Source: Thermoplasmata archaeon (GTDB lineage: Archaea; Thermoplasmatota; Thermoplasmata; Lutacidiplasmatales; UBA184). Taken from it: 64,000 bases of DNA. Position numbers and translations under genes: made by a program. Position 1 is the first letter of the stretch; every line of letters starts with the position of its first letter. This document shows, one piece after another, positions 17,901 through 40,699 of the stretch. The stretch is taken from assembly GCA_022750195.1 (NCBI GenBank), contig JAKIWE010000001.1:866672-930671 (forward strand), in the 5' to 3' direction. The notes under the pieces are model-generated. The model was not told where the DNA came from and searched no databases. It was given only the letters and a program-made list of their open reading frames with translations.

Positions 17901-18023
17901 TCTGCATGATAGTCTGGAATCGGATATGAGGACCCCTTGAGGGGCGGATCCCTGCCGCTGGAGGTCCCAACGGATTCCTCGTCGAGCGAGCTCAAGCTCG
18001 CCACGTGGCGCTCGGCGTGCGGC

Positions 18024-18098
18024 CGGGCGTGGGGGGATTTGAACCCCCGACCGCCGGGTTAGGAACCCGGTGCCCTATCCAGACTAGGCTACACGCCC
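18024..18098 (-). tRNA. tRNA-Arg, anticodon CCT
   Basis: A complete cloverleaf on the minus strand. Acceptor stem GGGCGTG pairs perfectly with CACGCCC, with G as discriminator base. The D-arm is GCCT...GGGC, the anticodon stem CCGGG/CCCGG with loop TTCCTAA (anticodon CCT, reading AGG), the variable loop CGGTC, and the T-arm GGGGG-TTCAAAT-CCCCC. No intron is present and CCA is not encoded. A TATA-like GTGTAATGG lies roughly 30 nt before the 5' end. The 5' part of this gene and its promoter are copied at 21809-21943. Confidence 0.95.
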
Positions 18099-36832: not shown

Positions 36833-36994
36833 GTGCCCGAAAACAAGCGCAGCGGATTCCACTCCGCGGCCGGTCTCATCCAGTACTACGACATGGAGGA
36901 GACACGGGCGCTGAAGATCGACCCGTACATCGTCCTCGTGCTCGGGATCGGCGCCGCGATCCTCGTCGAGGTCCTGAACTGGAAGTTCGTTTGA
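36833..36994 (+). CDS. secG: Preprotein translocase subunit Sec61-beta (SecG)
   Basis: A 53-residue single-helix subunit of the SecYEG translocon. The cytoplasmic part ENKRSGFHSAAGLIQYYDME matches the archaeal Sec61-beta pattern, followed by KIDPYIVLVLGIGAAILVEVLNWKFV as the membrane helix. GTG 36833 is chosen because TTTATAT lies 27 nt upstream and 53 residues is the normal family size; the track's ATG-like start at 36722 adds 37 non-homologous residues. The final codons LNWKFV-stop are repeated at 38457-38477, marking this gene's 3' end as a likely integration site. Confidence 0.92.
   Translation: MPENKRSGFHSAAGLIQYYDMEETRALKIDPYIVLVLGIGAAILVEVLNWKFV
36974..36994 (+). repeat. Putative attL: 3' end of Sec61-beta
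   Basis: CTGAACTGGAAGTTCGTTTG followed by A. It encodes LNWKFV and the stop, and matches 38457-38477 at 18 of 21 positions; the three differences are all at third codon positions. The integrase remnant starts 28 bp further on. Confidence 0.65.
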
Positions 36995-37021
36995 CCTCAG
37001 AGAAGTGCCCCCTTTTCATGG

Positions 37022-37462
37022 CTACGCCTTCAGATAGGGCTCCATCGCTGCACTGAAGATTCGCATTCCGGCCCGCATCTCTTCCTCGTCCAGACCGATG
37101 TAGTGGGCGGTCATGTCCACCGATTCGTGGCCGTAGATGTTCTTCAGGTCGACGAGCGATACCCCAGCCTAGTAGGCGGCCCGACCGAACGATCGTCGCA
37201 GGTCGTGTCCAGGCACCTTCAGCCCGATTCGTACGCCCGCCGCGACCGCGTCCTTTTCGAGGGTCACGAGCGACAGAGGGTAGACGGGGTCCTCCGGCCT
37301 CTTCCCCTGGACGGCTTCTAGGAGCATCGGACAGACCACGACCGTGTCCATCGGAATCGTCCGCCACTTCTGGTAGAGGAGATTGACTCCGGTAGAGACT
37401 AGCCCGCCGACGACTGCGATGCTCAGGTCGGCAAGGTATGTCCCGATCACCGACCAATCCAT
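37022..37462 (-). pseudogene. Tyrosine recombinase (integrase) remnant, truncated and interrupted by TAG
   Basis: From about residue 33 the frame reads as the C-terminal half of an archaeal integrase: KWRTIPMDTVVV, then HDLRRSFGRAAY with the catalytic His and Arg. An in-frame TAG at 37169-37171 follows, then AGVSLVDLKNIYGHESVDMT with the second His, HYIGLDEEE with the Tyr nucleophile, and an ordinary stop at 37022. The N-terminal core-binding domain and the first catalytic Arg are missing; the first 32 residues (DWSVIGTYLADLSIAVVGG) are unrelated and hydrophobic. Truncation plus a stop codon mean it is inactive. It lies next to the repeated Sec61-beta 3' end, the usual place for the int gene of an integrated element. 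Confidence 0.82.
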
Positions 37463-37530
37463 GCCTGAGAATGAGGAAGGGTCCTCAATCGCACCTTAGG
37501 TCCGACCCGCAAATGTGGAAAATCGGGGGA

Positions 37531-37558
37531 GGGCCCGGGGAGGACCGGACCCCCCGAA
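37531..37558. repeat. 28-bp GC-rich motif, copy 2 (tRNA T-arm-like)
   Basis: GGGCCCGGGGAGGACCGGAC followed by CCCCCGAA. It matches 21679-21706 at 24 of 28 positions. It lies inside the Sec61-beta scar between the integrase remnant and the interrupted membrane gene. Confidence 0.5.
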
Positions 37559-37571
37559 ATGGTTGGCTCAC

Positions 37572-38192
37572 TTAGGGTGGGAGAGAGGCCGAGCGGAGGC
37601 GGTTGGCATACTCGCGGTTGAGGCGTTCGAGGTCGGCGTGATCCAGCGGGCAGGGGTCGATTTGGCGAAAAAGGGCAAAAGCACGATCGGATAGCCCCGA
37701 GCGGATTCGAACCTCCGTCGGGTAGTCCTCTGAGGCGGGAACTGCTCAGCGCGGGGAAACCTTCGATGCGACTCTCTCTGCCTGGAGGTTAGTGAGACGA
37801 AGACCAAACGGAAAATTCAATGTTCTTCGGGGAAGCTGGAGCCGGTTTCCCCGTAGCCTCAGCTCCTCCCAACGGTAGCCCTGCCGGAAACCGCTTCGCC
37901 TTGCATCGGGCGTGCGAATTTCCACAATCAGACCTTCAAGGGCGATCCCTAGAGTTGCTGAGGAGGGGACCAGAAACACGTACGCTAGTACCGCGGGGAT
38001 CAAGATCATCGCCTCAAAACCGGCCGCGACCAGAGCGCCTGATCCCGCCGGGAATCGCGACAAGATTCCAAAGGCGTTCGCGATCAGCGAGCCCGCGGTC
38101 ACTCCCCCCAGGAGGATCGCGAGGAACCCGGCACTCCACCGGGCAATCGAGAGCCCAGGAATCCATTCCACGCGAGGGGAGACATCGGCCAC
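37572..38192 (-). pseudogene. Membrane protein gene interrupted by in-frame TGA
   Basis: The track ORF (148 residues, GTG 38192 to TGA at 37746) has two membrane helices (RWSAGFLAILLGGVTAGSLIA and FEAMILIPAVLAYVFLVP) and a soluble part (GYRWEELRLRGNRLQLP) reminiscent of a PH-like domain. The same frame stays open after the TGA for 57 more codons (EDYPTEVRIRSGLSDRAFAL ... LNREYANRLRSASLPP) to a TAA at 37572. That segment has protein-like composition but no start codon of its own, so the original gene probably covered the whole span and was broken by a nonsense change. Alternatively the 148-residue product is complete. Family unknown. CAATTAAGG near 38213-38221 could be its promoter. Confidence 0.55.
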
Positions 38193-38526
38193 GATTCCCC
38201 GAATTCCAACCCCTTAATTGACCTGTTTGCCCGCGGAGACTCGACCTCGGAAACGTCGGTGTAACGAATGCAGGTTGCCCCGTCCCGACTGGGGGGTTGA
38301 ATGGCCGGGGGTCCAAAGACCCCCGGGAACGGGCTCACTCCTCGGTCGGGTGGAGCCAGGAGAGAGGAGTTCGAGCTAGCCGTCGGGCGAGGGTTACGAA
38401 CGCGCGATCCACGTCCGCCTCGGTCAAGTTCGGGCGACCCTCTGACGAGAAACGAACTAAACTGGAAGTTTGTCTGAGCCCGGTGCGGCGGTCCGAGAGT
38501 CGGCGCCGATAGACCCGGGGCCGCGC
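38193..38526. other. Non-coding end of the integration scar
   Basis: About 330 bases without a credible gene. It contains the promoter-like TTAATTG near 38214-38220, a strong GC-rich inverted repeat GGGGGTCCAAAGACCCCC near 38307-38324, and the repeated Sec61-beta tail (38457-38477). Confidence 0.45.
38457..38477 (+). repeat. Putative attR: displaced copy of the Sec61-beta 3' end
   Basis: CTAAACTGGAAGTTTGTCTG followed by A, again reading LNWKFV-stop. It is 18/21 identical to 36974-36994, with only synonymous differences. Upstream of it there is no Sec61-beta similarity beyond these codons. Confidence 0.6.
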
Positions 38527-39630
38527 TCAGCTGACTCGGGACAAGCTCGCCCCGCTAGGGACCAACGGAGTCCCCAGCGGATCGAGCGCCGCTCCGAGGC
38601 GCCGCCGCAGCCGGAACAGGAAGTAGACCACCAGAACGACCCCGATCAGATTGGCGACTTCGCCGAGCAGGAGCACGAGAGGGGTCCAGAGGAGCAAGGT
38701 AACCAGCAGCCCCTCGGCGATCGCGAAGCCGGACTTCAACGGGGTGTCGGTTCCGGCCCAGCGGAGGAGGGCGAAGAACGCGAGGGCGTTGGCGGCCACG
38801 ATGAGTCCGATCGTGACGACCGGCGCCGGGATGGAGCTGTGCAGGATGTACCCGAGCACCACCCAGGAGGCGAACGGGGTCGCCGCGAGCAGCGCTAGCG
38901 TTCGGGGGCGGACCCGCATCGGTCCGGCCCGGGGGGCGAACAGCTTTGGGGGCAGAGCCAGACCGAGCAGGATCAACCCTACGACCAACGCCGCGAAGAA
39001 GACGAAAGGACCGGTCGCAGGGCCGGAGCCCACGAGCAGGCCGAGGATGACGACGTCCGCGGCGTACAGTCCTCCGACTAGGCCGATCTGGCGCCGGGTG
39101 AGCCAGCGCATCGTGGACGTCTCCGGGTAGAAGAGGCGGACCAGGAGGATCGGGAGCGCGATGCTGTAGACCGCGTGGAAGATCATGAGGCCGACCGCCC
39201 AGACCCAGTTCACGCCCCAGTAATGGCCGTAGGAACCGAGGGCGCCAACTGGGCTGCCCGAGGTCATGAAGAAGGTATGGACCGCGAACCCTTCTTCGAG
39301 GATCCCGTACGCCCCACCCCAAAGGAGAACACTCGCCCAGCTTTTCTTCCACACGACCGCGGCTTCACGGATCAGGAGGACGCCGGCGCCGTAGAGCGCC
39401 AGCTCCGACGGAACGGTGAACAGCACGAAGCTGAGCGGGTTGACGAACAGCGTGTTCAGGTTCGTCGACCCGGTGAGGACCTCCGGGATTCCCACCGCCA
39501 GGGTGATCAACAGCAGGATCCAGCGCGACCGCCGCGTCAGGCCCCACCATTTCGGCCCGCTCGCGGAGGCCGAGGGGGGCTCGCGAGAGACCCCGGACGT
39601 CGCGAGGAGCGCGCCGTTCACGCTCCCCAT
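38527..39630 (-). CDS. Polytopic membrane protein of unknown function
   Basis: About 367 residues with roughly ten hydrophobic helices, for example WILLLITLAVGIPEVLTGS, LSFVLFTVPSELALYGAGVLLI, GLMIFHAVYSIALPILLVRLF and LIGVVLVVYFLFRLRRRLG. A conserved-looking GGAYGILEEGFAVHTFF segment with Glu and His residues in or near a helix recalls membrane-embedded protease-type (CPBP-like EExxxR/H) patterns, but the match is too weak to assign. The start is ATG 39630 (GTG 39633 also possible); GTTTAAG lies only about 20 nt upstream, so the true start could be slightly downstream. Confidence 0.7.
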   Translation of the reverse strand: MGSVNGALLATSGVSREPPSASASGPKWWGLTRRSRWILLLITLAVGIPEVLTGSTNLNTLFVNPLSFVLFTVPSELALYGAGVLLIREAAVVWKKSWASVLLWGGAYGILEEGFAVHTFFMTSGSPVGALGSYGHYWGVNWVWAVGLMIFHAVYSIALPILLVRLFYPETSTMRWLTRRQIGLVGGLYAADVVILGLLVGSGPATGPFVFFAALVVGLILLGLALPPKLFAPRAGPMRVRPRTLALLAATPFASWVVLGYILHSSIPAPVVTIGLIVAANALAFFALLRWAGTDTPLKSGFAIAEGLLVTLLLWTPLVLLLGEVANLIGVVLVVYFLFRLRRRLGAALDPLGTPLVPSGASLSRVS

Positions 39631-39739
39631 CACGTCGGATTCGTGGTCTTAAACCCCTCCGGCTAAATCCGCCGGCTCTCCTCAGAGCGGATCGAGTGCC
39701 CCACCCTCCGGTCACGACGGAGAGGACGCCCGCCCTGAG

Positions 39740-40699
39740 TTACCCCCCAACGCGGAGCGGTGCCCGGCCCGGAAGATATCGTTCGACGTCCTGGTGGCCG
39801 AGCAGGAGGACCTTCGATTCCCGCGATTCGTCGAGCACTTCGTAGCCCGTCCGTCCGGCCAGCTGGTGGGCGAACCCCGAGATCTCCGAGTGCTCGGGCA
39901 CGTGGTCCCGCCCGAGGCGCTGCCGAGAGCGACCCATGTACACGTACCCCTTCGGCTCGATGAAATCCGGCCGGGCCAGCCCGTCGAGCTCGGCGTACTG
40001 CTCGACCCAACCGAGGTTCCACCCGCGCACGAGCGTGTGCCGGACCACCCTCCGGGTCCGCAAGTGACGAAGGATCTCGAGCGACTCCCGCAGCCGTGAC
40101 CAGGCGTGAGGGTCGGTCGGCAACGTGAGCCGCCGGAAGACCTCCTCGTTCGGCGCGGTCACGGAGATGTAGAGCTGCGTCGGCAGCGGGTCGAGAGCGC
40201 GCAGCCCGTCCGGGTTCGTTCCGTTCGTCACGAGGAACGTCGTGATCCCCCGGGCGTGGCAGAGCTCGAGGAACCGGTTCATCTTCGGGTAGAGCGTCGG
40301 CTCGCCGGTCAACGAGATGGCGATATGCCGCGGCGACTGCGCGGCCTCCCAGCGCTCGAGCGTGACGGCCGGGTCGCCCTTGAAGCCGGAGAGCATGCGG
40401 AGCTGCGCGTCGATCGAACGGTCCAGGAGCGCCTCCGGGTCGTCGTACTCCGTCATCATCTCGTCGTTCTCCCAACCCTGGCTCCGCCAGCAGAAACGGC
40501 AGTGCAGATTGCACGAGTCGATCGCGGGCGACATCTGCACGCAACGGTGGCTCTCGATGCCGTAGAAACGGCCCTTGTAGCAGTCGCGCCCTTCTACGAG
40601 CGACTGGCGCGTCCAGTAGCAGAGCTTCACCGCCGAATGGCGACCGGTCAGCTGGTACCCTTGCCCCGCGAGCTCGGTCGAGAGGTCCTGGTCGCCCAT
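39740..40699 (-). CDS. taw1: 4-demethylwyosine synthase Taw1 (TYW1)
   Basis: A 319-residue radical-SAM enzyme that builds the tricyclic 4-demethylwyosine base on G37 of tRNA-Phe from N1-methylguanosine and pyruvate. The radical-SAM cluster is C63-x3-C67-x2-C70 (CNLHCRFC). The second iron-sulfur cluster is probably held by C27, C40 and C53, spaced as in characterised archaeal Taw1. HIAISLTGEPTLYPKMN and TFLVTNGTNP are family motifs. GATTAAGG at 40726-40733 lies about 30 nt before ATG 40699, consistent with a leaderless mRNA. It is divergent from the MFS transporter. Confidence 0.94.
   Translation of the reverse strand: MGDQDLSTELAGQGYQLTGRHSAVKLCYWTRQSLVEGRDCYKGRFYGIESHRCVQMSPAIDSCNLHCRFCWRSQGWENDEMMTEYDDPEALLDRSIDAQLRMLSGFKGDPAVTLERWEAAQSPRHIAISLTGEPTLYPKMNRFLELCHARGITTFLVTNGTNPDGLRALDPLPTQLYISVTAPNEEVFRRLTLPTDPHAWSRLRESLEILRHLRTRRVVRHTLVRGWNLGWVEQYAELDGLARPDFIEPKGYVYMGRSRQRLGRDHVPEHSEISGFAHQLAGRTGYEVLDESRESKVLLLGHQDVERYLPGRAPLRVGG

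Follow-up and report, generated by a model that had tools for sequence, protein, structure and literature searches.

The interval from 36995 to 38456 of a 64-kb stretch of DNA from a soil archaeon (the window, which is the whole stretch analysed; genome G000, contig C11) is very probably the dead remnant of a tyrosine-recombinase integrative element that entered secG, the gene of Sec61-beta, and left the gene restored. An initial annotation of this DNA had proposed a decayed element that recombined into the 3′ end of secG and restored it, and the proposal is supported by empty sites in relatives, arm sites and a layout common to sister elements. The direct repeat, the arms, the empty sites, the integrase remnant and the common layout were all directly observed. 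The features of the locus are as follows.

36833 to 36994, plus strand: secG (Sec61-beta), the target gene (Pfam PF03911, E=2.8e-13; syntenic within the genus).
36974 to 36994, plus strand: attL core, the left copy of the direct repeat.
36995 to 37011, minus strand: left arm site, GGGGCACTTCTCTGAGG (rank 1 of 127,968 positions, 19.0 bits).
37022 to 37393, minus strand: C-terminal third of a tyrosine recombinase, with the N-terminal two thirds missing (PF00589; alignment; profile).
37572 to 37712, minus strand: pA, a short frame starting in the tRNA-Gln tail, kept at element ends that adjoin intact tRNA-Gln genes.
37693 to 37720, minus strand: 3′ tail of tRNA-Gln(TTG) without the remainder of the tRNA, a tRNA-Gln-type attachment site.
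37746 to 38192, minus strand: 148-aa open reading frame, probably a membrane protein (by inspection).
38335 to 38475, minus strand: pB, a short frame adjoining the right end and placed like pA with respect to the attachment site.
38431 to 38447, plus strand: right arm site, CGGGCGACCCTCTGACG (rank 2 of 127,968 positions, 12.2 bits).
38457 to 38477, plus strand: attR core, the right copy of the repeat and putatively the displaced original host secG tail, followed by the flank GCCCGGT.
38527 to 39633, minus strand: 368-aa membrane-protein gene after secG.

The last codons of secG recur at the far end of the interval, as the initial annotation had reported. The copies at 36974–36994 and 38457–38477 have 18 of 21 bases the same, the three differences are all synonymous in the LNWKFV-stop reading, and an identical 11-base block, AACTGGAAGTT, is shared (36977–36987 in the left copy). 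Such a repeat is short, with only these 11 identical bases in a row, which weighs against the main reading. On both strands of the 64-kb window, the right copy was the sole place within 5 mismatches of the 21-mer. The Sec61-beta protein is identical with the left or the right tail, and the target gene is intact. Eighteen bases of the right copy, AACTGGAAGTTTGTCTGA, match the native end of secG in a relative (L193) exactly, and the GCCCGGT after this copy resembles the native secG flank in G007. Because of this identity and this flank, the right copy is taken as the probable old host tail and the left copy as that of the element. The present last codons of secG are therefore read as supplied by the element, which agrees with the earlier suggestion that the element brought its own secG tail. 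The interval is also AT-richer, as had been noted (GC 61.7% vs 68.2% in the window).

The integrase remnant proposed in the initial annotation was confirmed on the minus strand by its match to Pfam PF00589 (E=7e-8), and its stop codon lies 27 bp from that of secG. The remnant spans profile positions 169–291 of 294 and retains the HDLRR, GHES and tyrosine motifs. The nearest integrases of the same subfamily share 50–58% identity over the remnant, and integrase relatives occur throughout the genus and family. An internal TAG is present at 37169–37171. Among the 67 long open reading frames in the window that possess a stop, 31 end in TAG, as does the integrase itself; therefore, the internal TAG is interpreted as a stop, and its use as a sense codon was rejected. 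As judged from its sequence, the remnant is dead and without function. An element of the SSV type, in which attP lies inside the integrase gene, was also rejected, since the attachment site is situated 27 bp past the integrase stop and the gene is not split.

A pattern search of 103 genomes of the family returned no intact secG-targeting element; the secG locus described here was the sole match, and no second case of a secG-type tail joined to an arm was found among them. In viral contigs, the strict pattern had zero matches and the loose pattern had three, which were not Sec61-beta. Sec61-beta was absent from the integrase-bearing loci fetched from class genomes and viral contigs. Because no intact secG element was found in the family genomes or viral contigs, a fragment is all that is known of the integrase for the secG target; this and the remnant length of 1.46 kb also count against the main reading.

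Relatives of the locus were found through the neighbouring twy1-like gene and are recorded mostly as Thermoplasmata MAGs, with one Candidatus Lutacidiplasma silvani. The gene order in the genus is an sppA-like protease, secG, a twy1-like radical SAM gene and a transporter (names by reading of sequences). The initial annotation had called for a search of related genomes for empty sites or for a larger secG element with an intact integrase. Empty sites were found: secG is followed by the twy1-like gene after 8–177 bp in 56 of the 71 relatives with both genes on a contig, and further relative genomes examined beside the 71 have the same short layout. The larger element was not found in the 103 family genomes. 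The view of the interval as conserved ancestral sequence is rejected by the empty sites. The other 15 relatives have inserts of 0.45–3.6 kb at the secG site, so the spot between secG and the twy1-like gene is open to insertion. The inserts that were read hold a surface protein, a HAD-type hydrolase or a transporter (by inspection), and the tail repeat and integrase are absent from them. No integrase match was detected between secG and the twy1-like gene in the 71 relatives; among the relatives compared, an integrase together with a tail copy occurs at this spot in this genome only.

The same comparison bears on the position of the right border. A larger element, with its right end near 39740 and the 368-aa gene at 38527–39633 included, is improbable. 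In its favour, the homologues of this gene in relatives (41–61% identity) sit upstream of the sppA-like gene and not after secG, and the twy1-like gene is where the empty sites stop. However, the displaced tail and the right arm are found at 38431–38477, no further tail copy exists in the window, and the family of the gene, with its identity of 41–61%, is native to this region, such that the move of the gene was probably a separate event.

The shorter borders coincide with arm sites. In a number of related integrase genes, the stop codon is followed by a common motif, GGGCAnnTTCTCTGACG; in the secG interval, it adjoins the integrase stop, and an inverted copy is located at the far end. The motif was first noticed by eye and then made into a weight matrix from ten sister-element sites at other loci, none from the secG locus, and both strands of the window were scored. 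The two secG arms took the first and second ranks. With the motif already seen by eye, this ranking is an after-the-fact check, which is a point against the main reading, yet the check is a strong one. When the ends are joined within the shared block, the resulting site is CTCTGACG-AGAAACGAACTAAACTGGAAGTTCGTTTGA-CCTCAGAG, with two inverted arms 30 bp apart, which is also the inter-arm distance in the C/D-box sRNA element of G010. The inner arms form a perfect 9-bp inverted repeat, AAACGAACT / AGTTCGTTT, and the longer arms match at 16 of 19 positions, both centred on the core. Among random joins within the window, a perfect 9-bp repeat at the core position occurred at a frequency of 0.001 (0.1%) and a 16/19 match at 7e-5 (0.007%). 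With every centre allowed, the symmetry score did not attain significance (the same score was reached by 1540 of 20,000 random joins), so the symmetry of the joined site taken alone is moderate evidence; significance was confined to the test at the core position.

Even less likely than a larger element is a repeat arising by chance, in which case the integrase fragment and the gap after secG would be debris of independent origin in an intergenic spot that varies. The spot is indeed variable, given the 15 of 71 relatives with other inserts, and those inserts that were read are without mobile genes. Against chance stand the uniqueness of the 21-mer match within 5 mismatches in 64 kb, the arm motif at both ends, whose ranking already contradicts chance, and the symmetric site formed by the joined ends. 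The chance repeat was thus rejected by uniqueness in the window, symmetry at the core position and arm ranking.

Three sister elements with both borders were identified, namely, at tRNA-Ile (G000), a C/D-box sRNA (G010) and tRNA-Gln (G007). The first belongs to a tandem array in the same genome (G000:C11:447715-475870; L334, L335), which begins at tRNA-Ile (447.7 kb). Repeats of 66 bp from the 3′ half of this tRNA are found again at 469.5 and 475.8 kb, two arms flank each of these two copies, and the array comprises two elements of 21.7 and 6.3 kb, after which a third begins. The first of these has an intact integrase and a cargo of large beta-propeller or Kelch-type proteins. The second sister (G010:C28:105.9-117.3 kb) is an 11.5-kb element in the 3′ end of the C/D-box sRNA with a 21-bp repeat and both arms, and the third (G007:C143) is a 9.5-kb element between tRNA-Gln and a copy of the tRNA-Gln tail. 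The secG, tRNA-Ile and G010 elements have a common layout: gene 3′ end, arm, gene-facing integrase, distal arm and displaced tail. The sister elements resemble the secG element in their related integrase, the arm adjoining the integrase stop, the integrase 3′ end near the site and the target-end repeat at the far border, whereas they target RNA genes and are 6–22 kb in size, the larger ones with an intact integrase. The tRNA-Gln element of G007 differs further in that the displaced tail, not the intact gene, adjoins the integrase.

The least likely explanation is a transposon with terminal inverted repeats and a target duplication of about 20 bp. In its favour, the two ends do form inverted repeats (19 nt, 84%), outside which lies a direct repeat. 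However, the direct repeat restores the gene in frame with synonymous differences that fit two different parental tails, a PF00589 integrase sits at the element end, sister elements use gene-end sites with 21–66-bp repeats, those with both borders all lie at gene ends, and no transposase or Cas1 domain was found in the open reading frames tested. A casposon or other transposon was likewise not supported, PF00589 being the sole match in the tested frames, although a Cas1 or transposase gene may have been lost.

For the tyrosine-recombinase element, the following course of events is proposed. A circular element would have borne an attP in which a 30-bp core, mimicking the final secG codons, lay between two inverted arm sites. 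The exact empty site would be a secG ending in ...AACTGGAAGTTTGTCTGAGCCCGGT directly before the gene at 38527–39633. Strand exchange by the recombinase in or next to the shared AACTGGAAGTT would have placed the element in the 3′ end of secG, so that the gene received the new tail TTCGTTTGA and the previous one, TTTGTCTGA, came to lie past the distal end of the element, with the protein sequence of Sec61-beta unchanged. Later decay would have removed the N-terminal two thirds of the integrase, placed a stop in its remainder and cost the element most of its cargo. The crossover direction and exact point, the former size of the element and its way of spread are parts of this course that we infer.

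The inside of the interval suggests a more complex history. Since a tRNA-Gln-type attachment site lies inside the secG element, the latter is probably a composite of two elements. The frame pA has counterparts of 67–72% identity in G074 and G079 and weaker ones in others, and in several relatives it comes after intact tRNA-Gln genes as well. The resemblance of pB to pA is weak and was seen by eye only. The 148-aa open reading frame had no Pfam match and no detectable relative among the loci fetched; consequently, the second broken gene of the initial annotation was not confirmed, as this frame cannot be called broken. An Rfam scan of the interval returned no convincing RNA. Elsewhere in the window, at 18006–18098, ARAGORN calls tRNA-Gln (plus strand) and tRNA-Arg (minus strand) at one place, of which the tRNA-Arg looks real.

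Elements of this general kind are known. Krupovic et al. 2019 (PMC6563490) described 68 thaumarchaeal integrated elements, 14 of which occupy protein-gene 3′ ends and have short repeats; the reading frame was restored in the example shown, and NitEve-E2 was located in a Zn-finger protein gene. The targets in that study included Zn-finger, AsnC, EF-2 and other genes, several of them unnamed hypothetical proteins, and Sec61-beta was not named among them. The thaumarchaeal elements share with the secG element the entry at the 3′-distal part of a protein gene, the short repeat, the supplied end of the reading frame and the verification by empty sites. The secG element differs in its target and host, its state as a remnant and its membership of a family with conserved arm sites. 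Bacterial genomic islands targeting dusA and trmE (PMC4482086, PMC8409611) likewise adjoin the end of a conserved protein-coding gene and bear an integrase; unlike the secG element, they are bacterial and use other targets, and the dusA islands enter the 5′ end. The initial annotation had listed protein-gene attachment sites as known for integrases, with none known in Sec61-beta, and nothing was found in the open-access literature that describes integration into the Sec61-beta gene. The genome paper on Lutacidiplasmatales makes no mention of integrases or viruses. Thus, the kind of element is known, with protein-gene targets already described in archaea, whereas the Sec61-beta target and the arm-motif family seem new within the open-access literature. 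Genes known to receive archaeal elements now include one for a protein-export channel subunit, and the secG remnant is tied to an arm-motif family that has intact members and is, as far as found, undescribed.

The C/D-box sRNA gene of this family of targets (L339:2834-2890; G010:C28:105.83-105.89 kb) scored 40.3 bits for Rfam sR2, with a cut-off of 42, and was matched in 60 of 78 genus genomes. According to the coordinates, about eight genomes have an integrase C-terminus facing the 3′ end of this gene, namely, besides G010, at G082:C39, G016:C84, G065:C93, G011:C133, G030:C118, G026:C39 and G069:C71. The gene looks like a recurrent integration site, and C/D-box sRNA genes may be new in this role, as the literature search found no report.

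The arm-motif family, in which constant arm sites go with differing targets, is of greater interest than the secG remnant itself. We consider it rather likely that a single integrase family of the Lutacidiplasma lineage, with constant arms and a changing core, has moved among the ends of tRNA-Thr, tRNA-Ile, tRNA-Gln, C/D-box sRNA and Sec61-beta genes, and possibly ABCE1; the targets would have changed through exchange of the core. If true, the family offers a natural series for how integrases change target, in which natural variants with the same arms and different cores allow the study of how site-specific integrases gain targets.

Three further loci were recorded. An E2 acyltransferase gene (G032) has a 16-bp repeat 6.9 kb away but no arms, and it is not claimed as a target. 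At G078:C11 near 51.65 kb (L336 / L326), an ABCE1-like gene (...GHGEYYYEPAA-stop) has an integrase of this family pointing at its 3′ end; an arm-like sequence adjoins the stop codon, and the contig ends before the other border. At G075:C51 near 9.37 kb (L330 / L338), an arm site behind a decayed family integrase extends into the start codon of an IscU/SufU-like gene, a possible 5′-end target.
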